From the IMG/VR virus record IMGVR_UViG_3300028840_000942, positions 1-52,175 of that record: DNA of 52,175 nt; one strand, written 5' to 3'. The DNA is from a virus. Shown here piece after piece: positions 10,067 through 46,122 of this stretch (positions are counted from its first letter, which is position 1; every line of letters starts with the position of its first letter). The translations under genes and the position numbers were made by a program. The notes beneath the pieces are model-generated. The model did not search any database. It was given only the letters and a program-made list of their open reading frames with translations, and had not been told where the DNA came from.

Positions 10067-10120
10067 AATACTAAACCTCCTATTATTTATTTTCTCCGCA
10101 AAAATGCGGGTAAATCCTTT

Positions 10121-10156
10121 TGTGTACTCTTGTAGAATACTGTGTACTTTTGTAGA
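10121..10156. repeat. Two 16-bp direct repeats, 20-bp period
   Basis: TGTGTACTCTTGTAGA (10121-10136) and TGTGTACTTTTGTAGA (10141-10156) differ at one base and are spaced 20 bases start to start, about two helical turns. They lie in the leader of the DUF3560-like gene next to a small hairpin (CCGCA-TTTT-TGCGG). Candidate regulator binding sites. Confidence 0.6.
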
Positions 10157-10170
10157 CATCCACATCCCTC

Positions 10171-10284
10171 TCACCCCTGTTGGCGCGGTAAATCATGTAG
10201 ACTCCCTATAAAAGAATATTTATTATAAGAGGGGAGGAGTATATATAGCTCTCTCACTCCCTTAAAGGTCGTTCGTTCGCTCAT
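10171..10284 (-). CDS. Possible small protein, 37 aa
   Basis: ATG 10282-10284 after GAGGGAAAAA; TGA 10171-10173. MSERTTFKGVRELYILLPSYN... is plausible but without recognised family. It lies in an AT-rich gap of about 250 bases between the 52-aa and DUF3560-like genes and could instead be leader sequence. Confidence 0.35.
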   Translation of the reverse strand: MSERTTFKGVRELYILLPSYNKYSFIGSLHDLPRQQG

Positions 10285-10316
10285 TTTTTCCCTCGTTGAG
10301 ATCATTTAGTGTATCT

Positions 10317-10475
10317 TTATTTATCCGCGTTTTTTTTGTGGTAGTTGGAATAATATTCGTTTATGATATTGCAGATTTGTTCATATATCTCTTTATCGTC
10401 ATCTTTCGATCCCAAGACATAGTCTGGGAGGTTCTTCCAGAGTTTTAACCTTCCCAACAGTTTATCCCTTGTCAT
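10317..10475 (-). CDS. Small helical protein, 52 aa
   Basis: ATG 10473-10475 after GAGGAGTAAAATAAA; stop TAA 10317-10319. MTRDKLLGRLKLWKNLPDYVLGSKDDDK... is helical with an acidic middle. It ends NADK in a CGCGGATAAATAA tail, nearly the same 3' end as the lipoprotein at 47741-48160 (IADK). Confidence 0.6.
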   Translation of the reverse strand: MTRDKLLGRLKLWKNLPDYVLGSKDDDKEIYEQICNIINEYYSNYHKKNADK

Positions 10476-10476
10476 T

Positions 10477-10644
10477 TTATTTTACTCCTCTGTAATTTTG
10501 GCATCGTGTAACCCTAGACATGCAAGCAATATGTGCTTTACACTTGACGGGACACTCATTATTCTGGCAAGTAACACATTGACACCCCTTGCATGATTGT
10601 TGCCTCTCCCTTGTGTTAAATTCACTTACTAGGTCATATCTCAT
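10477..10644 (-). CDS. Small Cys-cluster protein, 55 aa
   Basis: ATG 10642-10644 after AGAGGTGAGTT; TAA 10477-10479. Eight Cys in 31 residues: CKGCQCVTCQNNECPVKC...AC...RC. The spacing resembles a small zinc or iron-sulphur knot. No family recognised. Confidence 0.65.
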   Translation of the reverse strand: MRYDLVSEFNTRERQQSCKGCQCVTCQNNECPVKCKAHIACMSRVTRCQNYRGVK

Positions 10645-10675
10645 AACTCACCTCTCATATAAGATACCCGCCTAT

Positions 10676-10690
10676 GTCTAATGGCTAGAC
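10676..10690. repeat. GTCTAAC-type palindrome, copy C, inside a longer hairpin
   Basis: GTCTAATGGCTAGAC. Here the dyad is extended: ATGTCTA/TAGACAT form a 7-bp inner stem and CCCGCC (667-672)/GGCGGG (693-698) a 6-bp outer stem with one bulged T, spanning about 10666-10700. It lies between the first and second early genes and could act as a processing or attenuation hairpin. Confidence 0.85.
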
Positions 10691-10703
10691 ATGGCGGGGT
10701 AAA

Positions 10704-10895
10704 TTACAATCTCTCTTCGCAGGATAACCTCTGTCCATTTTCGTCTGTATAATAATCTTGGAATATCAACTTAACGCGTAAAGCTCCATTGTGTGTCGCT
10801 TGCCATGCTGTATTGATTTTTTGTCCATTGTGATCATAGACGGAGATGTCATATCCTTTATTTTCTCTGGTTATAAGAATGATTTGAGCTTTCAT
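10704..10895 (-). CDS. First early gene, 63 aa hypothetical
   Basis: First gene downstream of the 10916-10944 promoter, with AGAGGTGAAAAAAA before the ATG and a leader of only about 15 bases. Beta-strand-rich start (MKAQIILITRENKGYDISVYD). No recognised family. First-expressed position suggests a host take-over or regulatory role, which is inference. Confidence 0.7.
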   Translation of the reverse strand: MKAQIILITRENKGYDISVYDHNGQKINTAWQATHNGALRVKLIFQDYYTDENGQRLSCEERL

Positions 10896-10915
10896 TTTTT
10901 TTCACCTCTGTATTC

Positions 10916-10944
10916 AATATCGGTTCGAGGAACGTATTTGTCAA
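10916..10944 (-). promoter_or_regulatory. Early leftward promoter
   Basis: On the minus strand TTGACA (10939-10944), 17-base spacer, GATATT (10916-10921). It precedes the first leftward gene by about 20 bases and faces away from the rightward promoter at 11470. Confidence 0.75.
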
Positions 10945-11469
10945 GTTTTATTTTCATTTTTTTTCATTTCCCTCAAGAAAAAAGTCTTCCCGGTGGCACA
11001 AAAAAAGAGGTGAACACGGATCCAACTGTTGCCCAACTGGACATCGAGCCGGCCACAAACCGCAGCCGGCGGCGGGTAAATCCAGAATCCCCCATAACAC
11101 TACTTAATAATACCCCACTAAGACATAACTACTACCCCTCTCTCCATACTCCATCCGCCTATATATACCCTATATTGGGGACCTCCAGGGGTAACCCCTC
11201 TCCACCCACCCCTACCTCTGGTAATTTACTATCCCTACCCCTCTCTTTTTCCCCTATTAGGGAGTCACCCTCCCCCATTGGGGTTTGGGTGGGGGGTAAC
11301 CCGCTCTCTGATACGCAAAATAAATTTATAGCATATGGGGGTGGATTAGCGTATTGTGTTGTATGGTTATTAGTGTAATCAGACGTATTGTTACCATAGG
11401 TGAACAAGTGGGTGAACGTGAAGGTGAACTAGGGGTGTTTAAAAAAGTGTATTTAATTTTAGGTAATGC
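10945..11469. other. Divergent non-coding control region / candidate origin
   Basis: The longest stretch without a convincing gene. From 10945 to about 11090 it is mixed sequence with one AGGTGAAC. From 11130 to 11300 the plus strand is pyrimidine-rich with CCCCTCTCC-like runs, containing the perfect dyad AGGGGTAACCCCT and a G-rich GGGGTTTGGGTGGGGGG block. From 11310 to 11400 it is AT-rich. Three GGTGAAC repeats at 12-bp spacing follow at 11399-11429. A direct-repeat array plus an AT-rich block between two divergent promoters is a typical place for an origin and control region; no function is proven. Confidence 0.5.
11399..11429 (+). repeat. Iteron-like array: three GGTGAAC at 12-bp spacing
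   Basis: GGTGAAC begins at 11399, 11411 and 11423, an exact 12-bp period, about 40 bases upstream of the -35 of the rightward promoter. A further AGGTGAAC occurs at 11011. Candidate binding sites for a replication initiator or activator. Confidence 0.65.
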
Positions 11470-11498
11470 TTGACAAAGGGGAACGGATTTGTTATGTT
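11470..11498 (+). promoter_or_regulatory. Rightward promoter
   Basis: TTGACA (11470-11475), 17-base spacer, TATGTT (11493-11498). Start of transcription near 11505 would give a short leader carrying TTTACCCGCG (11512-11521) and an AAGGAG ribosome site before the ATG at 11540. Confidence 0.75.
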
Positions 11499-11539
11499 AT
11501 AGGTATGGATATTTACCCGCGCAAAATAAGGAGAATAGG

Positions 11540-11719
11540 ATGATTGAATTAAAGATTTTATTAACTGCGCTTTGGGGTATTTTTTTTGGGGTATTATTAG
11601 GTAATGCGTTTGAGGATGAGGAGAATATCGGGTTTTATGTGGGCGTTTTATTGTTCATAGTGTCGGCCATGGTGTTTTTCTATTGTTCAATAGTATGTAT
11701 ATGGGATTACATACCATGA
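11540..11719 (+). CDS. Small membrane protein, 59 aa
   Basis: ATG at 11540 follows AAGGAGAATAGG; an upstream in-frame start at 11489 lies inside the promoter. Two hydrophobic segments, about residues 5-22 (LLTALWGIFFGVLLGNAF) and 29-50, separated by EDEEN, predict a two-pass membrane protein. First gene of the rightward block. The stop overlaps the next ATG (ATGA). Confidence 0.7.
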   Translation: MIELKILLTALWGIFFGVLLGNAFEDEENIGFYVGVLLFIVSAMVFFYCSIVCIWDYIP

Positions 11720-12219
11720 GAGAAATTAAGTTTCGGGCATGGGATAAGAAGTACCGTGAATTTATAAAAATTACCCCGGTTGAGAATGGGGGGATGTTTT
11801 GTCACTACAAAATTTCAAGCCAGAGTACACCAGATCATAGGGTGTATGACGGGGTGAGTGGTAAAAATATTTTCCTAACCCTTGATGGTCATGTAGTGGC
11901 GATTACTCCTTGGGATGAAAAAACAACTTGTGTTCGCATAGAGGAGAGGTATGTACTTATGCAGTACACGGGGTTAAAGGATAAGAATGGTAAGGAGATA
12001 TATGAGGGGGATATTGTTTACAAAGAGATATTGGCTCGTGATGACCCCGCGTGTGGATTTTATGGGGACAAGTTGTCAATTGTGTATGAAGATGGTGGTT
12101 TCTTAGCCAAGGAAGATGAGCATGCTGTAATTGCACATTATTTACATATAGTAGCAGAGGATTGTGAAGTAATAGGGAATATTTATGAGAATCCTGAGTT
12201 ATTACCCGCGCGGGAGTAA
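11716..12219 (+). CDS. YopX family protein
   Basis: 167 residues with both ends of the YopX family (PF09643): N-terminal MREIKFRAWDKK and C-terminal MQYTGLKDKNGKEIYEGDI followed by CEVIGNIYENPELL. YopX proteins are widespread in phages of Firmicutes and other bacteria; they are beta-rich and of unknown function. The ATG at 11716 overlaps the upstream TGA. The C-terminus LLPARE is encoded by a TTACCCGCGCGGGAGTAA palindrome. Confidence 0.9.
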   Translation: MREIKFRAWDKKYREFIKITPVENGGMFCHYKISSQSTPDHRVYDGVSGKNIFLTLDGHVVAITPWDEKTTCVRIEERYVLMQYTGLKDKNGKEIYEGDIVYKEILARDDPACGFYGDKLSIVYEDGGFLAKEDEHAVIAHYLHIVAEDCEVIGNIYENPELLPARE

Positions 12220-12224
12220 ATTGA

Positions 12225-12455
12225 ATGAGAAAGAAGAAAAAGGATAAGGGTACCATAGTGGATGAGTTGGCTAGGTACCGCCGCGAACAGGCGGAGGCTA
12301 TGGAAGCGTTGACAGAGGAAAATTTCAAGAGGGCGATAGAGTATATAGGGAAGGATGCGTTACAGTTGGTTCCCCCTGTATTACCACCGAAGGTGAGGGA
12401 TTTTTTAGATGAGGAAAAACGGCGGGTAAAAACTGAGGAGAAGAAAGATGACTAA
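12225..12455 (+). CDS. Charged helical protein, 76 aa
   Basis: Starts MRKKKKDKGTIVDELARYRREQAEAMEAL; highly charged, helical, probably coiled coil. The ribosome site GGGAG lies within the palindromic end of the YopX gene. Overlaps the next gene by 8 bases. No family recognised. Confidence 0.65.
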   Translation: MRKKKKDKGTIVDELARYRREQAEAMEALTEENFKRAIEYIGKDALQLVPPVLPPKVRDFLDEEKRRVKTEEKKDD

Positions 12456-12615
12456 CCGATTAATAATGGTCAATATGATTGATGTGGAAATAGCAAGATT
12501 GCAGGCAATACGAGAATGTCATGTGTCGGAGGCTATGTTACCGTCAATTTCGGTATTGGTGGTGTTTTTGGATTTTTTGGGGGTAGGGGTAGCAAAGGAG
12601 AAGAAGGATGAGTAA
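12448..12615 (+). CDS. Small protein with hydrophobic segment, 55 aa
   Basis: ATG 12448-12450 after GAGGAGAAGAAAG; stop TAA 12613-12615. Amphipathic helix (MIDVEIARLQAIRECHV) followed by a hydrophobic stretch (SVLVVFLDFLGVGVA) and a charged end. Possibly membrane associated. Overlaps both neighbours by 8 bases. Confidence 0.6.
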   Translation: MTNRLIMVNMIDVEIARLQAIRECHVSEAMLPSISVLVVFLDFLGVGVAKEKKDE

Positions 12616-12910
12616 GAAGTGGAGTTATAAATGTCCATCTTGCAAGACTACCACTCAATTTGTGGAGTACGAGCCGAGGAGATGGGGGGCAACAAGAGAT
12701 GAGCAACAAATGGATGAGAGGTTACAACGATTACATGGAAAGGTAATGAAACTAGAGGAGTATGGTTTAAGTCTTTGGGGAGGGCTGTTTGGTATGCAGG
12801 AATATATCCATATCTCCAAGTTGTTTGAGTTATTGTTCCATTATCTAGGGGTTGAACTCAAAAAAAGTGAACCATATCCGTATAAGTTGGAGAAGAAAGA
12901 TGAAGCATAA
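12608..12910 (+). CDS. Hypothetical protein with N-terminal CxxC, 100 aa
   Basis: MSKKWSYKCPSCKTTTQFVEYEPRRWG starts like a zinc ribbon but a second Cys pair is missing. The rest is helical with LWGGLFGM and LFELLFHYLG. No family recognised. Ribosome site AAGGAGAAGAAGG; overlaps the next gene by 11 bases. Confidence 0.65.
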   Translation: MSKKWSYKCPSCKTTTQFVEYEPRRWGATRDEQQMDERLQRLHGKVMKLEEYGLSLWGGLFGMQEYIHISKLFELLFHYLGVELKKSEPYPYKLEKKDEA

Positions 12911-13109
12911 GATTGTAGTGGTGTTGGATGATAGCGCGAGGCGATTTAACAGGAATGAGTATTCTGTCTATGAACAATGTCCCAGTACGGATGGGATGAG
13001 GTTTTTAGCAAGGTTTTATGATAAGTGCCATGCGTTTGAATGGGCGGAAAAGATTGCGGGGGAACTAGGTGGGTTGAAAGTAGAGGAGCAATACAATGAC
13101 GAGGGGTAA
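12900..13109 (+). CDS. Hypothetical protein, 69 aa
   Basis: Start ATG 12900 (MKHKIVVVLDDSARRFN...) after GGAGAAGAA, chosen over 12852 because it fits the overlap pattern. One strand IVVVLDD then a helix ending AFEWAEKIAGEL. Function unknown. Overlaps the next gene by 14 bases. Confidence 0.65.
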   Translation: MKHKIVVVLDDSARRFNRNEYSVYEQCPSTDGMRFLARFYDKCHAFEWAEKIAGELGGLKVEEQYNDEG

Positions 13110-13377
13110 GTTCTTAGTCAGTCTAGGTGCATTACTATGTGCCCCGTTTTTACCCGCGCTTAAAGGCGCGGATAAAAGTCTAGCGGTTAGACATGAGGAG
13201 TGGGAGAATCATTATATCATGGCAGATGGTAACGAGTGGTGGGAATGCAAGAGTCGCCGAGTAGATGAGGGTGAAAATCATCTATTTAAGGCACAATGGC
13301 GGAATGAGCCATATCCCCCAACATGGGAAGAGTACATTTATTGGCAGAATAAGGGGCGTGGACGATGGCACCCATAA
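13096..13377 (+). CDS. Exported protein with signal peptide, 93 aa
   Basis: GAGGAG precedes the ATG by eight bases. Residues 1-25 (RGKFLVSLGALLCAPFLPALKG) form a basic-hydrophobic Sec-type signal peptide. The mature part is short and Trp-rich (NEWWECK, YPPTWEEYIYWQNKG). Unusually, the region after the hydrophobic core (PALKGADKSLAVRH) is encoded by a hairpin CCGCGC-TTAAAG-GCGCGG and palindrome copy A, the only copy in the family translated in frame with good support. No family recognised. Confidence 0.65.
   Translation: MTRGKFLVSLGALLCAPFLPALKGADKSLAVRHEEWENHYIMADGNEWWECKSRRVDEGENHLFKAQWRNEPYPPTWEEYIYWQNKGRGRWHP
13154..13192. repeat. Hairpin plus GTCTAAC-type palindrome, copy A
   Basis: CCGCGC (13154-13159), loop TTAAAG, GCGCGG (13166-13171), then GTCTAGCGGTTAGAC (13178-13192). 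Preceded by TTTTTACC. The same pairing of a TTTACCCGCG block with the palindrome occurs at copies B, C and F, but here inside a coding sequence. Confidence 0.85.
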
Positions 13378-13547
13378 GGGATTTTCGTTGCTATGTGTGT
13401 GGGTATGTAAAGACGGATGTAACACATCCGGCGGAACTGGATGCTTGCCCGAAATGTAAGAGTAGGAGCTGGACTAAGGTGCCTTCCGCACCAGGGGGGT
13501 TTAAGGGGCTACCTACTGAGAAGTTCTATAAGAGAGGGGAGAAATGA
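13365..13547 (+). CDS. Zinc-ribbon protein (FmdB-like), 60 aa
   Basis: MAPIRDFRCYVCGYVKTDV, then CPKCKSRSW and PSAPGGFKG. Four Cys in two pairs about 20 residues apart; the order resembles small FmdB-type zinc ribbons. Overlaps the signal-peptide gene by 13 bases and the next gene by 4. Confidence 0.7.
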   Translation: MAPIRDFRCYVCGYVKTDVTHPAELDACPKCKSRSWTKVPSAPGGFKGLPTEKFYKRGEK

Positions 13548-13645
13548 AGTTACCATTTAAGGCGATAGCGAAGGTTATTGGGTTGGCGTTACTCGGCGCA
13601 AAGGTCGTTGAGAGAATCATAGATACCATAAAACGGGGGAAATAG
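13544..13645 (+). CDS. Small basic amphipathic protein, 33 aa
   Basis: ATG 13544 overlaps the upstream stop (ATGA) after GAGGGGAGAA. MKLPFKAIAKVIGLALLGAKVVERII... is a single amphipathic, partly hydrophobic helix with a basic end, resembling the 39-aa protein at 42531. Membrane association is likely; function unknown. Confidence 0.55.
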   Translation: MKLPFKAIAKVIGLALLGAKVVERIIDTIKRGK

Positions 13646-13648
13646 GGG

Positions 13649-13676
13649 TTGACAAATCCGTTACGCATGATATAAT
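13649..13676 (+). promoter_or_regulatory. Strong sigma-70-like promoter
   Basis: TTGACA (13649-13654), 16-base spacer, perfect TATAAT (13671-13676), in the short gap after the 33-aa gene. It would transcribe the genes from 13730 and probably the head genes. Best consensus match in the window. Confidence 0.85.
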
Positions 13677-13729
13677 GTTTTACGTAGAGAGTGAATCAAT
13701 TTCACACGGAGGTCTAGCAGGAGATATGG

Positions 13730-13933
13730 TTGAGTACGGAAGAGGAAATACGGGCAGTATTCGAGCAGGATATAGCGGAGAAGTCGAAGCAGGTAATCAA
13801 CAGGCAGAGCATATTGCCGTTTTTGGACGGCATGGAAGGAATGTCGATTCAGGAGTTGTATTGGGGGCTGATTGATGAGGAGGATATTGCACTATTACAG
13901 AGGATTGCGGAGATAGAGGATGATTCATTGTGA
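13730..13933 (+). CDS. Acidic helical protein, 67 aa
   Basis: TTG start at 13730 preceded by AGGAGATATGG, a strong ribosome site with good spacing; there is no competing ATG. The acidic protein (STEEEIRAVFEQDIAEK..., DEEDIALLQRIAEIEDDS) is helical. First gene after the strong promoter. No family recognised. Confidence 0.65.
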   Translation: MSTEEEIRAVFEQDIAEKSKQVINRQSILPFLDGMEGMSIQELYWGLIDEEDIALLQRIAEIEDDSL

Positions 13934-14141
13934 TATTTGTAACAAGCCATTTGCGACAAGACATCATGCAGAGTATTATACAGTTATGATTGAGTGGGAT
14001 CAGTGGAAGTGGTCATGTAAACCGTTTGTATATAATTGTTTAAGTGACCCTGCTGTGTGTGGACCTTGCTTCGTTCGAGCGGTAAGGGAAGGTCATATTT
14101 GGGCGCCACCAAATCTGGATGCGGAGGTAGCAGATGATTGA
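13920..14141 (+). CDS. Zinc-finger-like protein, 73 aa
   Basis: MIHCDICNKPFATRHHAEYY opens with CxxC and HH; CGPCF near residue 50 supplies a second Cys pair, giving a treble-clef-like zinc site. The remainder is Trp-rich. Function unknown. Confidence 0.7.
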   Translation: MIHCDICNKPFATRHHAEYYTVMIEWDQWKWSCKPFVYNCLSDPAVCGPCFVRAVREGHIWAPPNLDAEVADD

Positions 14142-14217
14142 CGGATTATTGTTGGTATTAGCTGGAGTATGTATCGGTGCTGGGTTTGTTATATGGTTAT
14201 TTGAGATAAAGAGATGA
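14134..14217 (+). CDS. Single-pass membrane peptide, 27 aa
   Basis: ATG 14134, TGA 14215-14217. Nearly the whole peptide is one membrane helix (LLLVLAGVCIGAGFVIWLF) with a basic end. Overlaps both neighbours by 4-8 bases (ATGATAA at its end), the usual coupling in this genome. Confidence 0.55.
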   Translation: MIDGLLLVLAGVCIGAGFVIWLFEIKR

Positions 14218-14336
14218 TAACTGAGATGGATTTTGTATCGTTTGTGGTAAGGGCGGATATACGGGTTGAATGGTTCTTTTGCGTATTCGCTATTATAATC
14301 CTTATCAATTTACTAAAATTTTTTCGCAAAAAATAA
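14214..14336 (+). CDS. Single-pass membrane protein, 40 aa
   Basis: ATG 14214 overlaps the upstream TGA. A polar N-terminus is followed by one hydrophobic helix (WFFCVFAIIILINLLKFF) and RKK. Together with the 27-aa peptide before it this makes a pair of tiny membrane proteins; roles unknown. Confidence 0.55.
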   Translation: MITEMDFVSFVVRADIRVEWFFCVFAIIILINLLKFFRKK

Positions 14337-14348
14337 GCGGAGGGGCAG

Positions 14349-14510
14349 ATGACAGAGAAAGGGCGGAAGTTCGAACGGTTATTGACACTTTACCAGATGA
14401 ATATGGATGTGATACAGAAGCTTGAGCATATACCGTATCCACAGGCTGGGAAGGCTACTGAAAAAGCATTAGATAATCTTCTCATTATTCTTGATAAATT
14501 AGAAGTTTAA
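14349..14510 (+). CDS. Small helical protein, 53 aa
   Basis: ATG 14349 after GCGGAGGGGCAG; TAA 14508-14510. MTEKGRKFERLLTLYQMNMDVI... is amphipathic helical. No family recognised. A stretch of about 140 bases without a clear gene follows (14511-14653). Confidence 0.6.
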   Translation: MTEKGRKFERLLTLYQMNMDVIQKLEHIPYPQAGKATEKALDNLLIILDKLEV

Positions 14511-18237: not shown

Positions 18238-18882
18238 ATGCTACTGAAAGATTGTCAGATATACGATTTAAAGAAGTCCACATTGGACTTGGATTTGGAG
18301 ATTGCAGAGGCGAGGAAAGCCGTACAAAAGGCGACCCAAGAGGAAACTCAAGCAGGGAACATACTCAAGGAATTGACTAAAGAGGATGCGAGTTACGCTA
18401 AACTCAAAAAGCGGGTAGATAAAGCCAGTAAGGATTTAGATTCAGCGACAACGACTCTCTCAAAGCTGGAAAGCGGGTATGACCAGAAACTCATGGACAA
18501 TAAGTTTAAGTTCATCGAGAAGGTACTGGTTGACCGCAAGGTTATTCGTGGACCGGATTATAAGCTGAAATGGGGTTCGACAATGCAGGATAAAGCGGGT
18601 TCAAGTTTTGCTTCCCGCTGGAAAGAACTGTATTCGGCAACATTAGTTACGCCGAAAGACAAGGTATGGGTGTCTGGGGCTGTCTGGACGGGCAGCGAAT
18701 TTAAGCACCGTGATGCCGTGTTAATGAAGATACCTCTTGAAGTGTACATTGAGAAACGCAGGCGGGAAACCGCTAAAAGTGATAGGCAGAAAGCCAAGTT
18801 ACGTAGCGAACTAGCTGCGGAAGCTCAGAAAGCAGGCTCACGGCTTATTACCGAGGAGGAGGTCGCTGAATTAGGTCTGTAG
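18238..18882 (+). CDS. Hypothetical head-region protein, 214 aa
   Basis: Residues 10-85 form a long coiled coil (EIAEARKAVQKATQEETQ..., KKRVDKASKDLDSATTTLSKLE). The C-terminal half is mixed, with a basic helix KRRRETAKSDRQKAKLRSEL. Located between scaffold and decoration genes; may be a head-assembly factor. No family recognised. Confidence 0.65.
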   Translation: MLLKDCQIYDLKKSTLDLDLEIAEARKAVQKATQEETQAGNILKELTKEDASYAKLKKRVDKASKDLDSATTTLSKLESGYDQKLMDNKFKFIEKVLVDRKVIRGPDYKLKWGSTMQDKAGSSFASRWKELYSATLVTPKDKVWVSGAVWTGSEFKHRDAVLMKIPLEVYIEKRRRETAKSDRQKAKLRSELAAEAQKAGSRLITEEEVAELGL

Positions 18883-18902
18883 CAGTCGAATAGAGGATAA
18901 AA

Positions 18903-19454
18903 ATGGCTGTTGTAACACCGAAATTTAAGTTCGGTTTTGTTTTACGGGATGGTCCGAATAACATCCAGCTGCTTTCCGAGGGTTCTACACAATCCTTTAA
19001 CCGGGGCGATATTGTGAAGATGTCCAGCGGTAAAGTAGTGCAGTTTACCACGCCTTCTAATTCCACAAAGACTACCACAGGTATCGAAACTGGGATTATT
19101 GGTGTGGCTGCTAGGGATGCGACAGGGACCGCAAATACCCTGATTCCGGTTTACATTATCACACCGGAACAGTTATGGGAAGTTCACGCCCAGCCAGGTA
19201 AGAAACCTTCTACGAAGGCGACTTATGACGAGGGCAAAAATGTGAAACTGGCGTACAAAGCCGTTACCACTTACACATTGAGTAATGGAACGACCACCAC
19301 AACTACAACCGTTGGTGCATGGTACGCACAGAGTACTGCTGCGACAGGCGGAGCCGGTGTGGTGATTGAAAAGTACCGCAGGGGCGACGAAGGTATTAAG
19401 GGTGGACGGATGTTAATTCGATTTACTTCACACGCTTGCGCTGGGCAGTACTAA
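18903..19454 (+). CDS. Capsid decoration-like protein
   Basis: 183 residues, beta-rich, Thr-rich, directly upstream of the major capsid gene. The segment NRGDIVKMSSGKVVQFT...GIIGVAARDA...LIPVYIITPEQLWEVHA resembles small beta-barrel head decoration/stabilisation proteins (DUF2190-like order: surface strand, gIigvA, ipv). Probably binds the capsid lattice. Confidence 0.6.
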   Translation: MAVVTPKFKFGFVLRDGPNNIQLLSEGSTQSFNRGDIVKMSSGKVVQFTTPSNSTKTTTGIETGIIGVAARDATGTANTLIPVYIITPEQLWEVHAQPGKKPSTKATYDEGKNVKLAYKAVTTYTLSNGTTTTTTTVGAWYAQSTAATGGAGVVIEKYRRGDEGIKGGRMLIRFTSHACAGQY

Positions 19455-25090: not shown

Positions 25091-25990
25091 ATGAAAAAGA
25101 TATTTCAAATAGGAATTTTAGTAGCGGGGCTATCTGTCTTTGTTTGGGGGCAAAATGCTCTCATGCGTATTATCGGATTCGATACAGATGACAGTAACTA
25201 CATTGAGATTGTCTGGAATGAGGATGACAGTTCTAACCGAGTGCTGAATATCAAGGTCAACTCCGGTAATAGAACCTTGGATATGAACGAAGGTCTAACC
25301 ATTGGTGATGGCAACGATGGGACTCTGACTTACTCGGCGGCATCTAAGACATTAACGGTTGAGGATAATGCTACAGTTAGTCAGGACTACAGTTCTGATG
25401 CTACGCCGACTTTTGCGGGGATAACCCTTGATAGTGGGTCTGGTGGCGACTTGAGGATTCATGACTCTGACCAGAGTAATTATACATCTATCACACAGGC
25501 TGCTATTGCTGGCAATCTGTCACTTGTTTTGCCTGCAACAGATGGTAATTCTGGAGATGTGTTTACCACGAATGGGAGTGGAACTACGTCATGGGCAGAT
25601 CCCGACACATTGGTGTACAAGAATGTCATTCTCAAGGTGATGGCAGAGGATACCGTTGTGACCTCTGGTGACGGGAAAATGTACTTCACTGTTCCTGCTG
25701 AATTAGCTGGATTCGATGTAGTGTCTGTTGAGTGTCATGTTTATACGGTAGATGCAGCCAATGATGTTGAAGTAGATATTTACAATCTGACCCAAACGGC
25801 TGACGTAATGTCGGATGCTCAGAATATCCAAGCTAATGAGAATGATAGCCTGACCTCAGATGACAGGGGAACGATAGATACGAGTGAAGATGATTTAACA
25901 TCCGGTGATGTATTAAGGGTAGATGTGAGCCTGTATGCAGGTTCGGCTGCGAAAGGATTAGAGGTTCGATTAGGGTTACTGAAACCGTAA
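25091..25990 (+). CDS. Fibre-like protein with Sec signal peptide, 299 aa
   Basis: MKKIFQIGILVAGLSVFVWG is a clean signal peptide (KK, hydrophobic core, small residue at cleavage before QNALM). The rest looks like a phage fibre: GLTIGDGNDGTLTYSAASKTLTVEDNATVSQDYSSDATPTFAGITLDSG, then a beta sandwich near VILKVMAEDTVVTSGDGKMYFTVP. Virion fibres normally have no signal peptide, so this is probably exported to the cell surface or periplasm. Followed within 10 bases by a second signal-peptide gene. Confidence 0.7.
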   Translation: MKKIFQIGILVAGLSVFVWGQNALMRIIGFDTDDSNYIEIVWNEDDSSNRVLNIKVNSGNRTLDMNEGLTIGDGNDGTLTYSAASKTLTVEDNATVSQDYSSDATPTFAGITLDSGSGGDLRIHDSDQSNYTSITQAAIAGNLSLVLPATDGNSGDVFTTNGSGTTSWADPDTLVYKNVILKVMAEDTVVTSGDGKMYFTVPAELAGFDVVSVECHVYTVDAANDVEVDIYNLTQTADVMSDAQNIQANENDSLTSDDRGTIDTSEDDLTSGDVLRVDVSLYAGSAAKGLEVRLGLLKP

Positions 25991-26000
25991 GGAGTAGAAG

Positions 26001-27221
26001 ATGCTGACGAAGTGGTACGGAAAGCAGGGCTTACTGTGGTGCATGTTGTTCAATGCGTGGTTGGTGTGGGGAATCTGTTTTATGTTGGTTCATCCCGTGT
26101 ATGCGGCATGGAAAAGTGGATATGGTTACCGGAAACAGTTTACGATTCAGGGAGATAACCTTGCCTCGAATGTAACTCAGTTTCCGTTGTTGGTGGATAT
26201 ATCCGATGGCGATATAGATGACCACTGTGATGATGATGGCACGGGGTCATGGGATATTATGTTTACCCAGTCGGATGGTACGACTGACCTTGATATTGAT
26301 TGGATAGATTATTCGGAATCGGGGGGTAACGCCTTAATTACCTGTTATGTTTCTCAGGCAAGTTGGGAGATTAGTTCAGACGGTTCGACTACGGGGTATC
26401 TCTACTATGGGAATGCTTCCGCAGGCGACCCTAATACAGCCAATGGAGTCTGGGATTCCAACTATATCGCTGTTTGGCATATGGATGAGGCGAGTGGAAC
26501 AATCTATGATTCTGCTGATGCGACAACTAGCCATGATTCTACCGTAAACACTATCACAGCCTATCAGCAAACAGGCAAAATTCATTGGTGTGTCGATATG
26601 GACGGAACAGATGACGAGATAAACTTCGCTGACCATGCCGAGTTCACGGTAACGGATGTCACGGTTGAGGGATGGGTGTATATAGATACATGGCAAGATA
26701 ACGAGGACTTTTTCAGTTGGTTTGATGACACTTCAGATGATGGGTTCAGATGGTTTGGAGTTGATGCTGCAAGTCCTGGCGAGATGAGGGTCTATGGAGA
26801 GGTTGCTGATAATTTAACGATTACCAATTCTGATACAGATGACTTGGTAACCGCAACTTGGACTCATTATGCGATGGTGCGGGACAGTGGAACATTTTAT
26901 ATGTACACCAACGGGGCAGTTGGTTCTGATTCTGATTCCAATGCTGGGGAGATTGATTCTTCGGATGTGATTACTATCGGTTCTGGGTATGACAACATTG
27001 ATTGGGCAGATGCCAAGTTTGAAGAATGGCGGTATTCCAATGCCGTGAGAAGTGCTGATTGGTTAGCGTTCCAATATGCCAATGTGAATGAAGCTGATGG
27101 TGAGCTTACATGGGGAGATGAAGAGTCTGGTTTTACCCCGAAAGTTATTATCATTGGCTATGTAGGTCAGGGTATATCTGGGTTTTTCCTTGTCCTCTTC
27201 AGGCGTAGAAAGAAAAAGTGA
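26001..27221 (+). CDS. DUF2341/LamG surface protein with signal peptide and C-terminal anchor
   Basis: 406 residues. N-terminal about 35 residues are a long signal peptide (LLWCMLFNAWLVWGICFMLV...VYA). Residues 38-130 (WKSGYGYRKQFTIQGDN..., TGYLYYGN) match the DUF2341 pattern. Residues 150-360 match a concanavalin/LamG fold (YIAVWHMDEASGTIYDSAD, DVTVEGWVYID, THYAMVRDSGTFYMYTNGA). The C-terminus VIIIGYVGQGISGFFLVLF then RRRKKK is a membrane anchor with a basic stop-transfer tail, as in surface-anchored proteins. A host-surface carbohydrate-binding protein encoded by phage; whether packaged is unknown. Confidence 0.75.
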   Translation: MLTKWYGKQGLLWCMLFNAWLVWGICFMLVHPVYAAWKSGYGYRKQFTIQGDNLASNVTQFPLLVDISDGDIDDHCDDDGTGSWDIMFTQSDGTTDLDIDWIDYSESGGNALITCYVSQASWEISSDGSTTGYLYYGNASAGDPNTANGVWDSNYIAVWHMDEASGTIYDSADATTSHDSTVNTITAYQQTGKIHWCVDMDGTDDEINFADHAEFTVTDVTVEGWVYIDTWQDNEDFFSWFDDTSDDGFRWFGVDAASPGEMRVYGEVADNLTITNSDTDDLVTATWTHYAMVRDSGTFYMYTNGAVGSDSDSNAGEIDSSDVITIGSGYDNIDWADAKFEEWRYSNAVRSADWLAFQYANVNEADGELTWGDEESGFTPKVIIIGYVGQGISGFFLVLFRRRKKK

Positions 27222-29965
27222 AACGCCTAGTCTTTTGTTTATTCCTGTTTTTACTTGGGTCATTTCTGTATGCTGATACCCATACTGCTGCGAGTCTGTC
27301 ACAATCAGATATTCAGGCTGCCATAGATGCCGCTGATGAGGGGGATTCGGTTCAACTGCCTGCGGGTACGTATTCCTCATTTAATGGTACAGTTACCATA
27401 AATGTTGCCAACCTGACAATCTATGGGCAGGGTAGTAGCTCTACAATCATCCAATCCAACACAGTACAAAATCAGAATGCTCCATTGTTTCTCATCGCTG
27501 CTGATGATGTGGAGATGAAGGATTTCCAGATAGATGGCTACCCTGTGGCTAGTGGCGTAGGGTGGGGTGTCAATATCAAAATAGAAGGTGGCACAAATTT
27601 TGACATCCACGACATGATAATTACGGATAATGATTTTGCGGGTATCTACGTGAAGGAATATCCCTGTGATGGGGTTATCTGGAACTGCACTATTACTGAC
27701 ATAGACTGTAACGGACTGGGTTATGGTGTCGCCCATTATGCTGAAGCATCTGGAGAATCTAGTGCTGCGGGAACGCAAGGTAATTTATCTCGAAGTGATG
27801 CCCTGGTTTTAGGTACGTCTGATGGTGTCTATATTGAGGATTGCACATTCACCAACTGTCGGCATTTTGTAACAGCACAGGCAGGCGGTAGGTATATCTT
27901 ACGCTACTGTACGCTAAATGCAAACTGGTCTATTGGCTCTATACAGGGGTTGGACACACATGGTCCTGACGAGTATGGGCGAGGCGGTAGGAAAATTGAG
28001 ATTTATGAGAATACCTATATCCGTACTGATGGTGGTAACGATTATTTCTTTATACTCTCGTCTGGTAGCGGTGTCATCTATAATAATACCATTACAGGGT
28101 TAGAGGCTGATTACCGATTTGGGTATATCTCCCATCCGTGCTGTACGGCCAATGATTGTTTAGATGCCTTCACCATCCGGTACACAGGGGCAGAGGCAAC
28201 CACTCTGACAATCTCTGGCAGTACCATGACCATAGATTGTACCAACGATACCTACGACCATACCATTGATTTATCTAATGCCAGTTATGACACATTCGCT
28301 GAATTAGTGGCGGCTATCAACGGGTATGATAATTACACCTGCACGATAACACATGAGAGGAATCAGCATCATGCTTCTACAGAATTATCCGCCATATCTG
28401 GTCAGGATATTCAATCGGCTAATTATATAGTCACGCATGACCAGCCTCTCAGGGATGAACTGGATGCCCTATATATCTGGGGTAATAAAGTTAATGGGGA
28501 ATCACACAATACTCCTCGACAGGTGAGTGCCTGTAATGATGAAGACGGCAATCCCTATTGGACGGTAAATGTTGAGTGGTTTGAATCAGAGATGCCACTT
28601 TACACGGCTTATACTTATCCACACCCAGCCAGAGAGTCTAGCCCTGCTGATACAGGATTTACATGGACTTCAGCAGATGATTCCAATAGTGCTGTAACAT
28701 CCATAAAGAACCAGTTTACGGAATCACCTCCAGGCGGTACGGAATGTAACGTCTGTTGGGCGTTTGCTACAGTAGCTTGTTTCGAGTCTGCTCTTATGCT
28801 TCCGAGTAGCGGTAGCGTTGGAGATCCTGGTAACACCATTGACTTGGCAGAGCAATTCCTTAAAGAGTGTCGCCAAGATGGATATGATGGGTGTAACAAC
28901 GGAACCATCCATCTGGGGTTTGGCATTATGAGTACACAGGGTATTGTGTTGGAGAGTTGCGAAGCCTTTACATTTACTGATGATGCTTGCAATGCAGGTA
29001 GTTGTTCTCCGCAATATCTATTGACGGGGTACAGGTATGGTGGTACTACGCCAGCGGCTATTAAGCAGAGTCTCTATGATTATGGTCCGATGGTTACGGA
29101 TATGGATGCTTCTTTTGACCTTGATGGGACCGCTCCGTTTGATACTTCGGATTTCATTTATAACTATGACGGTACTTGTGTCGCTTATCATAATGAAACA
29201 GAGAGTACGAACCATACAGTTCTGATTGTGGGGTATGGTGATAGTCCCAGAGATAGGTGTTCTAGTGGTTCTAGTACAGACTACTGGATAGTTAAAAACA
29301 GTTTTGGAACCAGTTGGGGGTCTAGCGGATATTTTTACATGGATGCGTATAGAAGTGGAGGCACAAACCACGATGCCAATGTAGGCTCTGGGGCATGGTA
29401 CATCAGTAATTGGGAAACATGGGATTCCAGCCGTGTTATCAATTATTATGATGAGAGTGGTTGGGGCACACAGATAGGCGGGGCGACTACTTATTATGGG
29501 TTATGCAAATACACGGCATCTCAGCATCAGTCGGTGGATGCTGTTATGTTCTATGCGCCTAATGGTGAGTCCTGCACCTACACCATTTATATTTACGACT
29601 CATTTGATGGTACGGACCTGGGGAGTGAGTTAACCTCTCAGAGTTCTACCATATCGAATGCGGGGCTTTATACGATTTATTTGGATTCCCCGCAGAATTT
29701 CAATAAAGATGACCAGATTGTAGTGGTTCTCAAGATGGTCTATTCCACATATACCACACCAATAGCGATAGATGATGACACCACATCCAACGAATCAGGC
29801 AAATGCTATGTGAGTGCTACGGGGGCTTCTGGAACATGGACTGATGTTGGCAGTTCCAATTCGGCAGATGTTTGTTTACGGACATTGGGTGAGAGTCAGG
29901 GCGCTGTCATTATAGGTGGTACACAGAGCATCAAGGGAACGGTAATTATCAAGGAAGAAAAATGA
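27218..29965 (+). CDS. Secreted beta-helix / papain-family (C1A) protease / lectin-like protein
   Basis: 915 residues; start overlaps the previous stop by 4 bases. Residues 1-19 are a signal peptide (MKRLVFCLFLFLLGSFLYA). Residues 25-400 form a right-handed beta-helix (SQSDIQAAIDAADEGDSVQLPAGTY). Residues about 480-720 are a papain-type peptidase: KNQ499, catalytic C513 in CNVCWAF, GCNNG (558-562), H666 in TNHTVLIVGYG and N694 in YWIVKNSFGTSWG, so the Cys-His-Asn triad is intact. Residues about 740-890 (YYDESGWGTQIG, VDAVMFYA, YTIYIYDS, GLYTIYL) resemble the lectin-like domain that often follows C1 peptidases in surface proteins. An eight-residue insertion separates KNQ from the active Cys. 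Probably digests or binds host or competitor surface protein. Confidence 0.8.
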   Translation: MKRLVFCLFLFLLGSFLYADTHTAASLSQSDIQAAIDAADEGDSVQLPAGTYSSFNGTVTINVANLTIYGQGSSSTIIQSNTVQNQNAPLFLIAADDVEMKDFQIDGYPVASGVGWGVNIKIEGGTNFDIHDMIITDNDFAGIYVKEYPCDGVIWNCTITDIDCNGLGYGVAHYAEASGESSAAGTQGNLSRSDALVLGTSDGVYIEDCTFTNCRHFVTAQAGGRYILRYCTLNANWSIGSIQGLDTHGPDEYGRGGRKIEIYENTYIRTDGGNDYFFILSSGSGVIYNNTITGLEADYRFGYISHPCCTANDCLDAFTIRYTGAEATTLTISGSTMTIDCTNDTYDHTIDLSNASYDTFAELVAAINGYDNYTCTITHERNQHHASTELSAISGQDIQSANYIVTHDQPLRDELDALYIWGNKVNGESHNTPRQVSACNDEDGNPYWTVNVEWFESEMPLYTAYTYPHPARESSPADTGFTWTSADDSNSAVTSIKNQFTESPPGGTECNVCWAFATVACFESALMLPSSGSVGDPGNTIDLAEQFLKECRQDGYDGCNNGTIHLGFGIMSTQGIVLESCEAFTFTDDACNAGSCSPQYLLTGYRYGGTTPAAIKQSLYDYGPMVTDMDASFDLDGTAPFDTSDFIYNYDGTCVAYHNETESTNHTVLIVGYGDSPRDRCSSGSSTDYWIVKNSFGTSWGSSGYFYMDAYRSGGTNHDANVGSGAWYISNWETWDSSRVINYYDESGWGTQIGGATTYYGLCKYTASQHQSVDAVMFYAPNGESCTYTIYIYDSFDGTDLGSELTSQSSTISNAGLYTIYLDSPQNFNKDDQIVVVLKMVYSTYTTPIAIDDDTTSNESGKCYVSATGASGTWTDVGSSNSADVCLRTLGESQGAVIIGGTQSIKGTVIIKEEK

Positions 29966-30135
29966 CAATCTTGGACACAAGCACACCGCTGAAAATCAAG
30001 CACATTATCATTGTTTTCATCGCCGCCAGCGTTATATTTTTTGGGTATTCAATGTATAAACAGGTAAAACTCAATCAAAACAATATTGAGGTCATGGTTG
30101 AGTTTCTACAAAAGGCGAGTCAGCCACAGAAATGA
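29962..30135 (+). CDS. Single-pass membrane protein, 57 aa
   Basis: ATG 29962 overlaps the stop of the protease gene (ATGA); TGA 30133-30135 overlaps the next ATG. One hydrophobic helix (HIIIVFIAASVIFFGYSMY) followed by a charged helix. The close coupling to the papain-like gene suggests a partner in its membrane retention or export; function unknown. Confidence 0.6.
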   Translation: MTILDTSTPLKIKHIIIVFIAASVIFFGYSMYKQVKLNQNNIEVMVEFLQKASQPQK

Positions 30136-33590: not shown

Positions 33591-34189
33591 CCATCGAGCG
33601 TGTTCGACAATTTGAGTATCCCTTCGGGATAGATGACCCGAAGATACACCGCTATCTTGAGTATCTTTACCGTGCCTTACAGGAAGAAGCGGTACAGCGG
33701 ATTGAGGACATTGAGAACGAGTTATCCCTGCATCTCAATACGACTCATCATGTACCCAAGACGCTTATTGGTGCGAGTGCTTATGCGGCTGTTGACCAAG
33801 AGAACCTTACGGATGCGACACTGACTAAAGTTACCCTTGGCACAGAAGAGTATGACTTGGGTGCTGATTTCGCAGGTAGTAAATTTACTGCCCCGATTGC
33901 CGGTTATTACCATGTATCCGGTCAGGTAAGGTTTAAAAATATTGTAGCGGATAAGCGGTATGCAGCTTGCATATATGAAGGCGGGGACACAGAAGAAGCA
34001 TTGGCAATTAGTCATACTGGGGCAGACACCAACCCGATTGCTGTGCCTGTGAGTAAGACTATTTACCTCGCTGCTAGTGAGTACGTTGAATTATACGCCG
34101 CTGTCCATTGCGGGGTAAACACGGTAGATATTGCGGGCGGCAACAAGGAAGACACATTTATGAGTGTTCATCTATTGAGTGCGGCGTAA
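33587..34189 (+). CDS. C1q/TNF-like jelly-roll tail protein, 200 aa
   Basis: N-terminal helix (KIHRYLEYLYRALQEEAVQRIEDIENEL) suited to trimerisation, followed by a beta domain FTAPIAGYYHVSGQVRF...RYAACIYEGG...ASEYVELYAAVHCG...DTFMSVHLLSA, the pattern of a C1q-like jelly roll. Probably a short tail fibre or spike. The stop overlaps the endolysin ATG. Confidence 0.7.
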   Translation: MTIERVRQFEYPFGIDDPKIHRYLEYLYRALQEEAVQRIEDIENELSLHLNTTHHVPKTLIGASAYAAVDQENLTDATLTKVTLGTEEYDLGADFAGSKFTAPIAGYYHVSGQVRFKNIVADKRYAACIYEGGDTEEALAISHTGADTNPIAVPVSKTIYLAASEYVELYAAVHCGVNTVDIAGGNKEDTFMSVHLLSAA

Positions 34190-34608
34190 TGGGTATAATT
34201 TACGTGGCTAAGTACATACTCAGGTCTGAGTACCAGTGTAAGTGCTGTGCTGGTTTACCGCCCAGTTACACAGAACCGTATGATACATCGTTTGAAACAT
34301 TGTTTGATAGTTTTGCTCTCATACGAGAGCGATGGGGTACACCCCTTAACATAACGTCAGGGTATCGGTGTCCACGGCATAACGCCTCCATAGGTGGATA
34401 CCGCCTGTCGATGCATCAGTGGGGCTTGGCTTTAGATATAGACGTAGAGGATAGTCAAGTAGCCACTTTACATAACATTATTGAAGACGTAGCTCCTGAC
34501 CTGAGAGTGGGTAGATACCCAGGCTTCATTCATATTGATGTAGCCTATTTTGTTTACCCGAAAGCCAGTGAATCATGGCAGAAGGGCTACAGATGGAGAG
34601 AAATATGA
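34189..34608 (+). CDS. Peptidase M15-type endolysin
   Basis: 139 residues; ATG 34189 overlaps the preceding TAA (TAATG). Contains ITSGYRCPRHNASIGGYRLSMHQWGLALDID and GFIHIDVAYF: zinc ligands H76, D83 and H115 of the M15A (Peptidase_M15_3) D-Ala-D-Ala-type peptidases. Cleaves peptidoglycan peptide bridges. It has an extra N-terminal YQCKCC cluster and no signal peptide. It lies far from the holin candidates, and could also be a virion-associated peptidase. Confidence 0.8.
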   Translation: MGIIYVAKYILRSEYQCKCCAGLPPSYTEPYDTSFETLFDSFALIRERWGTPLNITSGYRCPRHNASIGGYRLSMHQWGLALDIDVEDSQVATLHNIIEDVAPDLRVGRYPGFIHIDVAYFVYPKASESWQKGYRWREI

Positions 34609-42679: not shown

Positions 42680-43522
42680 GTGCGTAAACTTGTGTACTGT
42701 AGCATTATCTTAGCCATGTTATTCAGCGTAGGCTGTACACAACGTCCCACACCTTACTTTGCCCCGCCTAGCGTTGTTGAAAACGCTTACAACCACATAG
42801 TATCTATCGCTGTTTACTACTATATGCCACAGGAAGAATGGGAAAAGCGTATGTATGTGGATGATGGGATACCTAAAGAGGACATAGCGACTGACTCTCA
42901 CATAGGGGACAAGCCAATAAAATGCGTGGCTTACATAGGTAGCGGTACTCTAATGCGGGATAACCATGTTATTACTGTCCGCCATTTATTTGACCACAAT
43001 GAGAACACTTATGACCGTAAGATATGGGTGTTTCATCAGCAGGTTGACCACCCCATCGAGGCTGACCTTATCGCTATTACTGAGAAGAAGGTTGACGAAG
43101 ATTATTATAACGATTACGCCTGCATTAAACTGAGGGAGAACCTTGGTTACCCCGGGCTGACTGTAGCCCGGCAAAATCCCAAGCTAGGTGAGAAGGTTCT
43201 GTTTGGATGTAGTGTCGGGGGTACCGCATACTTTCTCAGGTTCGGTGTGGTGAGCCATTTTAAATGGTACTTCCGCAAGGATGATGAGGGTAGGCTACAC
43301 CTGTCCCATTGGGTTGGGTATCAATTCACGACCGTATCCCCGTCAGGTCCAGGTGACTCAGGGTCATCAATCATCAATACTCATGGGCAGATAGTGGGGA
43401 TAATTTATATCGGGGTAAACATTTACGAACAGATGTATAGCTTCTCGAATCCGGTGGAGATGTTGTGGGAATTTTTAGACGAACACCACTTAAAATACTT
43501 GGCTTATCCCTGTATGGATTAA
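42680..43522 (+). CDS. Trypsin-like serine protease lipoprotein
   Basis: 280 residues, GTG start preceded by AGGAGGGGGAA. Residues 1-19 are a lipoprotein signal with lipobox FSVGC (Cys19). The mature part is a chymotrypsin-fold protease: H102 in HVITVRHLFD, D145 in YNDYACIKL and S227 in SGPGDSGSSII, with GQIVGIIYIG after the nucleophile. The triad is intact. It would be anchored in a membrane facing outward or periplasmic. Located in the lysis/export cluster; role unknown (cleavage of envelope or receptor proteins, or superinfection control). Confidence 0.8.
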   Translation: MRKLVYCSIILAMLFSVGCTQRPTPYFAPPSVVENAYNHIVSIAVYYYMPQEEWEKRMYVDDGIPKEDIATDSHIGDKPIKCVAYIGSGTLMRDNHVITVRHLFDHNENTYDRKIWVFHQQVDHPIEADLIAITEKKVDEDYYNDYACIKLRENLGYPGLTVARQNPKLGEKVLFGCSVGGTAYFLRFGVVSHFKWYFRKDDEGRLHLSHWVGYQFTTVSPSGPGDSGSSIINTHGQIVGIIYIGVNIYEQMYSFSNPVEMLWEFLDEHHLKYLAYPCMD

Positions 43523-44498: not shown

Positions 44499-46122
44499 TG
44501 TTAAGTTCTTTCACCAGTTAAGCGATTCCGACCAGGATGAATGGTTATTCGAACGCTCCGCTTGTGACCAGTCCTTTTATTATTTTACCCGCCAAATGGG
44601 GGGCTACCTCCCCAAGTCAGGCGGCGACCTCTCAGATTTAATCCATAAACCCATATGTGATTGGTGGCAGGACAACTCTATCATACGGAAGTTCTGCTAT
44701 ATGCCCCGTGACTGGCGTAAGACTACGGTACTTACCCGCTGGGCAAACATATGGCGTTACCTACAAAACAACGAAGTCCGTATCCTCATAGCATCCCAGA
44801 AACTTGATAAGCCTATTGAGTGGATTAAATGGATGCAGAAGATTGTACTCACCCATGAACGCTTACGGTGGCAGTACCCCATACTGTTGCAAGTAACCCG
44901 TGCCTATACCAAGTCATGCGGCACATGGTCACAGGCTGACTGTTTACTCCCCCGAATCGGGCACTACCCTGAACCCACATGGAAGGGGATAGGGATAACA
45001 GGTGCAGCTCAAGGTGGTCACTATGACTTCGTACACCCTGACGACATGATAGGGGAGAAGGGCATGGAAAGTCAAACTATTATGGAAGACGCTCTGAGAT
45101 GGTTCGATAATATTGATGAGTTACTAGACCAGCCTATCGCTACCCTGCCTCAACCCAGTATCATAACCGGAGTTGGGACACACTGGGCACAGGGCGACCA
45201 GGGGTGCTACATCCAACAGAACTATAGAGAGTACCAATGGAAGATTGTCCCCGCCCTCAAAGACAACCTGATGGACTCAGATAATATCGAGTGGGTGCAA
45301 AACCCTAACGTAGCCAACGGGGAAAGTAACTGGGAAGAATGGTTCACCACTGACTACTACAAGAAGATGCTCGCTAACCCTGAAAAAGCCATGGTGTTCT
45401 ACTGTCAGCATCAGAATAACCCATCCCAATCAGGCGGGGGACTGAATAAGTTTGACCCGACATGGATACGTTACTACCGCTTTGATGAGAGGGAGGACGG
45501 CAGGTACGTAGTCTGTGAAGATGACGGGCAGGAGTTCAAGTTATCCGCCATTCAACTATACGGCATGATAGATCCTGGTGGGTTCGCTGAAGTCAAAGCT
45601 ATCAAGGCGGGTAGTCGTAACGCATTAGTTATCGGTGGGCAGCCGTTTGGATCGGTAAAGAAATTCATAGTCCATGCCTGGGCGAAAAGGTTTCAAGACC
45701 CTGATGTATTCATGGATGCTTTATTTACCGCGCATGATGAGTTTAGACCGAGGGTATGGCGTATAGATACCGCAGCACAGCAACCATATATTTATAAGGA
45801 TATTCAAACTGAAGCGAAGAAACGCGGGACCGCACTCCGCATTACTCCTTTAACCCCAGATACGAGAAGGGATTCTAAAGACGCTGACATACAGTCGTTG
45901 ATAAATCCCTTCTTTAATGGGGAGTTCTATTTACATAGGTCAATGAAGGATTTTATTGGTGAGTACAGCAGTTACCCGACTGGGTTTACTGTTGATTTAC
46001 TGGATTGTGCGGGCAAACTTAATGTCAACTACTGGCATAGGAAGGAACGGCAGGAACCGCGTAAGAAGAAAGTGGTAACGATTGCAGCACATGAAGGCAG
46101 AAGTCAAGTTACGGGGTACTAA
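44482..46122 (+). CDS. Terminase large subunit
   Basis: 546 residues. The ATPase has a deviant Walker A PRDWRKTT (75-82), a Walker B region YDFVHPDDMIG near residue 190 and a coupling segment IITGVGTHWAQGD. The C-terminal RNase H-like nuclease has MIDPGG, VWRIDTAAQQPYIYKDI and acidic residues near VDLLDCAGKL. It packages DNA through the portal. The Walker A lacks the usual Gly before Lys, a variation seen in terminases with an Arg-first P loop. Its end overlaps the convergent radical SAM gene by 4 bases, with no terminator between. Confidence 0.85.
   Translation: MLNQVDVKFFHQLSDSDQDEWLFERSACDQSFYYFTRQMGGYLPKSGGDLSDLIHKPICDWWQDNSIIRKFCYMPRDWRKTTVLTRWANIWRYLQNNEVRILIASQKLDKPIEWIKWMQKIVLTHERLRWQYPILLQVTRAYTKSCGTWSQADCLLPRIGHYPEPTWKGIGITGAAQGGHYDFVHPDDMIGEKGMESQTIMEDALRWFDNIDELLDQPIATLPQPSIITGVGTHWAQGDQGCYIQQNYREYQWKIVPALKDNLMDSDNIEWVQNPNVANGESNWEEWFTTDYYKKMLANPEKAMVFYCQHQNNPSQSGGGLNKFDPTWIRYYRFDEREDGRYVVCEDDGQEFKLSAIQLYGMIDPGGFAEVKAIKAGSRNALVIGGQPFGSVKKFIVHAWAKRFQDPDVFMDALFTAHDEFRPRVWRIDTAAQQPYIYKDIQTEAKKRGTALRITPLTPDTRRDSKDADIQSLINPFFNGEFYLHRSMKDFIGEYSSYPTGFTVDLLDCAGKLNVNYWHRKERQEPRKKKVVTIAAHEGRSQVTGY

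Follow-up and report, generated by a model that had tools for sequence, protein, structure and literature searches.

A Papain-Family Protease Joined to a Beta-Helix and a Lectin-Like Domain, with a Sec-Like N-Terminus, in a Variable Adhesin Cassette of a Phage Genome

Results and Discussion

The window (the whole stretch of DNA that was analysed, 52,175 bases) is one virus record and carries a perfect direct terminal repeat of 144 bp, the usual mark of a complete genome. An intact open reading frame of 915 codons, with a GTG start and no internal stops, was identified at 27218-29965 (+), exactly where the sequence-only reading of this DNA had placed it; the GTG start overlaps the stop codon of the LamG gene before it, indicating translational coupling. 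Portal, head, structural, and terminase genes are found around it on the same strand, and the gene belongs to a coupled late operon, between capsid and tail genes. The sequence-only reading had raised the concern that this gene might be present only through misassembly with host sequence; because of the terminal repeat, the same-strand phage genes and their order, the coupling, and a GC content (44.9%) matching that of the genome (45.2%), such a misassembly is very unlikely, and it was ruled out as an explanation. The features of the protein and of the neighbouring genes are listed in Table 1.

Table 1. Coordinates of the features identified in the 915-residue protein and in the genes next to it.
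Feature	Position	Strand	Basis
Fibre-like protein with N-terminal Sec-like signal (predicted)	25091..25990	+	Sequence
LamG (ConA-like) protein, directly upstream, coupled	26001..27221	+	Pfam Laminin_G_3, 5e-15
Putative Sec-type signal sequence, residues 1-19	27218..27274	+	Sequence: positive n-region, hydrophobic core, A at -1
Right-handed beta-helix, residues ~28-315	27299..28162	+	Pfam Beta_helix
Domain homologous to one in tail sheath protein gp17 of Pseudomonas phage Dolphis, residues 317-426	28166..28495	+	
Linker between beta-helix part and protease, residues 427-485, ending '...YTYPHP...'	28496..28672	+	No Pfam match
C1A papain-family peptidase domain, residues ~486-715	28673..29362	+	Pfam, PDB sequence matches, fold match
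Oxyanion-hole Gln499	28712..28714	+	Q in 51/51 rows with a letter there (of 56)
8-residue insertion FTESPPGG in oxyanion loop	28715..28738	+	Alignment; absent from relatives displayed
Catalytic Cys513	28754..28756	+	Invariant, 56-sequence alignment
Catalytic His666	29213..29215	+	Invariant, 56-sequence alignment
Catalytic Asn694, followed by S-F, not S-W	29297..29299	+	Invariant, 56-sequence alignment
Lectin-like domain PF18560, residues 743-888	29444..29881	+	Pfam, 1e-20
57-aa single-pass membrane protein, directly downstream	29962..30135	+	Hydropathy scan

Three consecutive genes (starting at 25091, 26001, and 27218) encode proteins with export-type, Sec-like N-termini, as judged by sequence. 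The LamG protein also presents a predicted C-terminal transmembrane anchor followed by RRRKKK. The fibre-like protein had weak similarity to tail fibre-like proteins of phages (best E = 0.01), and its AF2 model was uninformative (pLDDT 38); homology searches with the LamG gene and with the fibre gene returned no significant match. Elsewhere in the window, a second exported-looking protease, a trypsin/HtrA-like protein with a lipoprotein-type signal (VRKLVYCSIILAMLFSVGC), is encoded at 42680-43522 and adjoins likely lysis genes. Two genes on the opposite strand encode a radical SAM protein (46119-47102 (-); PHROG 24834, function unknown) with 52% identity to one in Bacteroides phage Versailles, and a protein with a DUF7666 and an Imm5-like (immunity protein-like) segment (4965-5693 (-)). 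Because the genome also encodes an M15 peptidase (34186-34608) and lipoprotein-like genes, the phage most likely infects a bacterium with peptidoglycan; an archaeal host, considered given the similarity of TerL and portal to those of vir526 and ANMV-1, is less likely in view of these same genes. A CRISPR link to a Sumerlaeota genome was rejected, since the matching 36 bp are part of a bacterial beta-helix gene and a second match came without an array.

The N-terminus of the 915-residue protein (VKRLVFCLFLFLLGSFLYA, with D following the predicted cleavage site) is Sec-like in its sequence pattern, in agreement with the signal peptide proposed in the sequence-only reading. The right-handed beta-helix proposed there was recovered as a Pfam Beta_helix match above the cut-off at residues 64-176 (28.5 bits versus 25.9); an NCBIfam beta_helix_1 match in the N-terminal half was below its cut-off, and the AF2 model of this part was strand-rich and of low confidence. 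Residues 317-426 matched the annotated Dolphis tail sheath (tblastn against a phage collection, E = 2e-5; 30% identity over 111 aa), with an alignment score of 120, whereas 1000 shuffles gave 59 at most. As these residues match a tail sheath, the protein joins a phage structural module and a bacterial-type protease module in one chain. No virion-binding N-terminal domain was recognised with Pfam and PHROGs, and a Pfam scan of the whole protein gave no match to cell-wall-binding repeats (PF04122); no propeptide was recognised by Pfam or in the model, and residues 427-485, which were modelled with low confidence, could serve as one. This tail-sheath-type domain, as well as an 8-residue insertion, the motif NSF in place of NSW, and 27 cysteines, had been missed in the sequence-only reading.

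The assignment of a C1A peptidase with C513, H666, and N694 as catalytic residues was borne out by a Pfam Peptidase_C1 match at residues 489-711 (8.6e-30) and by the alignment of 56 sequences. Due to the insertion in the oxyanion loop, Gln499 stands 14 residues before C513, while six is the family norm; at position +2 from the catalytic Asn, W was found in 54 of the 56 aligned sequences and F is found here (Trp177 to Phe). These two features, together with the long branch of the protein in the tree described below, would fit a catalytically dead adhesin in which the papain fold is kept as a binding scaffold; we regard this as improbable, as Cys, His, Asn, and the oxyanion Gln have all been kept, which neutral decay would not favour. 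Because these four catalytic positions are kept, the C1A domain is probably active. The 27 cysteines (2.95% of the 915 aa) compare to 0-3 in each of the portal, scaffold, and major capsid proteins, and Cys510, 551, 559, and 591 are at alignment positions that are often Cys in relatives and that we take to be papain disulfide positions. Since cysteines are many and some are at these positions, the cysteine content fits folding outside the cytoplasm.

The lectin-like domain proposed in the sequence-only reading directly follows the C1A domain. Structure prediction and a fold search, which that reading had suggested as a check, recovered the C1A fold: AF2 modelled the C1A and lectin-like parts mostly with high confidence (lectin-like pLDDT mostly above 95), and comparison of the model by Foldseek and VIA-align gave Z scores of about 27 to cathepsins for the papain fold. 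The best solved-structure match was Cwp84 (PDB 4d59/4ci7), with which the protease and the lectin-like domain were aligned jointly (model of residues ~486-894; Foldseek E = 2.5e-18; VIA-align Z = 35.9, 2.5 A over 372 residues). Cwp84, a protease of the cell surface, cleaves SlpA, the precursor of the S-layer, and its lectin-like domain binds calcium (PMC4089489). The phage protein and Cwp84 have in common a C1A domain directly followed by a lectin-like domain, the catalytic triad, and, as predicted here from the sequence pattern, probably an export signal. However, the protein described here is encoded by a phage gene, has no recognised propeptide or cell-wall-binding repeats, and adds the beta-helix and the phage domain in front as well as the oxyanion-loop insertion. 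No match to the protein was found in a defence-system library.

Four relatives of the phage were found by TerL alignment (scans of viral contigs with the portal and stabilisation proteins found none); they have in common with it the terminase (44-49%), the capsid (39-54%), the portal, and the genes flanking the region that matches 25091-29965. In this region, the four relatives hold unrelated genes, including one for a large beta-helix protein and one for a fibre-like protein; no homologue of the protease gene was found in any of the four, an empty search answer that is weak evidence, and none of their large genes in this slot has an evident signal. As the relatives fill the slot with unrelated genes, 25091-29965 is marked as a variable adhesin cassette. 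Signal-bearing genes were identified in more distant relatives. Groundwater podovirus MW202554 (L050) has genes with canonical Sec signal peptides, by sequence, at 13349-14374, 18416-18910, and 25674-29579; Tail Collar and ConA-like proteins are among the signal-bearing products, as are other structural-type proteins. Contig L165 presents three neighbouring candidate signal-bearing genes near TerL (9767-13147), the first for a protein of 188 aa and the others for a calcineurin-like phosphoesterase and for a BNR-repeat protein; candidate signal-bearing genes are also found in L143. The sequence-only reading had called a signal peptide on a fibre-like protein unexpected; it is indeed unusual, but, given the two upstream genes and MW202554, not isolated.

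For the C1A-lectin half, the nearest sequences are secreted proteases of bacteria (32-34% identity), other viral C1A proteins being farther away. Its eight nearest cellular relatives (L053-L060) are secreted proteases of Sumerlaeota, Zixibacteria, Krumholzibacteria, Eisenbacteria, and unclassified bacteria, all eight with hydrophobic N-termini. Proteases of the four named groups have in common with the phage protein the succession of signal (Sec-like by sequence in the phage protein), C1A, and lectin-like domain (29-34% identity), but carry a short pro-region and, at the C-terminus, sorting tails or anchors; a beta-helix fusion was found in none of the cellular relatives inspected. A tree built with a quick method places the phage protein on a long branch near the bacterial proteases and other viral C1A proteins on separate branches, which suggests, tentatively, that viruses have acquired C1A several times. 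The proximity to bacterial proteases, along with the search that did not find the gene in the closest relatives, may suggest that it is acquired cargo (as the sequence-only reading had proposed among other readings), i.e., a host gene for a secreted protease that has no role in the phage cycle and perhaps alters the surface or the nutrition of the infected cell. This proposal is weakened because the N-terminal half contains the tail-sheath-type domain, a phage structural domain in the same chain, and because the gene is in the adhesin slot; translational coupling within the late operon, a GC content equal to that of the genome, and the lack of a beta-helix fusion in those cellular relatives also argue against it, and we consider it rather unlikely.

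The sequence-only reading called papain-type proteases very unusual in tailed phages, which proved too strong. Scans of IMG/VR contigs identified at least 91 distinct C1A-bearing ORFs, including some from contigs resembling eukaryotic large viruses; examples among annotated phages or isolates are THSA-485A ('peptidase C1A papain'), Burkholderia phage FLC9, Alicyclobacillus phage MMB025, and Lak phages, and PHROG 16701 already contains C1A proteins. Proteases of the papain type are thus well established in phages, as a minority feature. Among the matches listed, most viral C1A proteins are about 250-300 aa long (mostly ~280 aa) and without a signal, five (L007, L010, L013, L026, and L227) have a lectin-like domain, and only L047 and its near-copy L049 have a long N-terminal fusion (LamG). 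The viral C1A proteins (PHROG 16701; L007, L026, and L047) have in common with the one described here the C1A fold and, sometimes, lectin-like or LamG parts, but the architecture of beta-helix, C1A, and lectin-like domain was found nowhere else among the matches listed in the collections searched. A direct search of IMG/VR with the 27218-29965 product found no close homologues, and we did not find a description of C1A-beta-helix phage proteins in the literature. Four matches to the C1A-lectin part in the phage collection (H1-H4) were rejected as pieces of bacterial chromosomes, with methyltransferase, RdgB-like, and other housekeeping neighbours. In L007, another tailed virus, a signal-bearing C1A and lectin protease is encoded near a LamG gene in the structural module. 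The product of L026 2110-3933, with C1A and lectin-like domains and no signal, has a C-terminal domain that is repeated in the next gene and is likely a virion-borne papain protease. The LamG-C1A fusions (L047 1622-3205 and L049 8594-10177) are found in large phage contigs and are also without a signal.

Signal-less fusions of C1A with fibre-type parts in other phages (L026, L047/L049) favour the main rival of the reading that we prefer, namely that the protein is a tailspike of the virion, the protease of each particle digging through a protein coat, e.g., an S-layer, at entry. Such a tailspike would either be exported, fold outside the cytoplasm, and dock after lysis, or use its hydrophobic N-terminus as a virion anchor. 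Like phage beta-helix tailspikes and fibre cassettes, the gene described here encodes a beta-helix and a domain shared with a tail sheath and occupies a variable slot among structural genes, between capsid and tail genes, that holds fibre-like or beta-helix genes in relatives; a putative export signal and a protease with a lectin-like C-terminus are added here. The signal peptide of the MW202554 Tail Collar protein also speaks for a tailspike. On the other hand, a virion-binding N-terminal domain was not recognised, a cleaved signal would part the protein from assembly in the cytoplasm, and the neighbouring LamG protein has a membrane anchor; on balance, we consider a virion tailspike possible but doubtful. 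Because of this anchor, and because signals are common to the three genes, the cell envelope fits better than the virion as the location of the protein.

We propose, with a probability of roughly 0.45, that the protein is an adhesin-protease, exported from the infected cell to cut surface proteins at a late stage of infection. The infected cell would export it via Sec late in infection, so that disulfides would form outside and the cytoplasm would be spared from the protease; the beta-helix and lectin-like parts may hold the protein to the envelope or to surface glycans, and the protease may trim surface proteins such as adhesins, S-layer, or receptor proteins. New particles could thereby get away from the dying cell and its debris instead of sticking to them, and rival phages would be denied receptors. 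The sequence-only reading had put forward adhesin digestion, a block to superinfection, or biofilm remodelling as conceivable functions. We base this proposal on the architecture, the catalytic residues, the fold, and the slot, and from these we infer export, disulfides, binding, and cutting. The domains and triad, the match to Cwp84, the Sec-like signals on three consecutive genes, the 27 cysteines, the secreted cellular relatives, and the arrangement in L007 argue for an exported adhesin-protease; the oxyanion-loop insertion absent from the relatives displayed, the Phe at the Trp177 position, and the lack of a recognised propeptide argue against it, as does the tail-sheath-type domain, which suggests a virion role at some point.

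Conclusions

Beyond this one protein, we find most intriguing that fibre-type genes in podovirus-like phages carry export-type signals in a row. It is conceivable, although we hold this as a tentative proposal, that some of these phages run an exported adhesin cassette, in which several fibre-type proteins, here including a protease, pass through the Sec system of the host. They would then either reshape the infected cell's surface or dock on virions only once lysis has occurred, and would not be added to the particle in the cytoplasm. If the export signals are real, it needs checking whether all fibre-like phage proteins belong to the virion, as is usually assumed, and annotation pipelines should seek Sec signals in adhesin cassettes. 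Phages use sugar-cutting tailspikes and wall-cutting lysins; with a dedicated, exported protease of the papain type that bears adhesin parts, the cutting of protein coats would join this repertoire.
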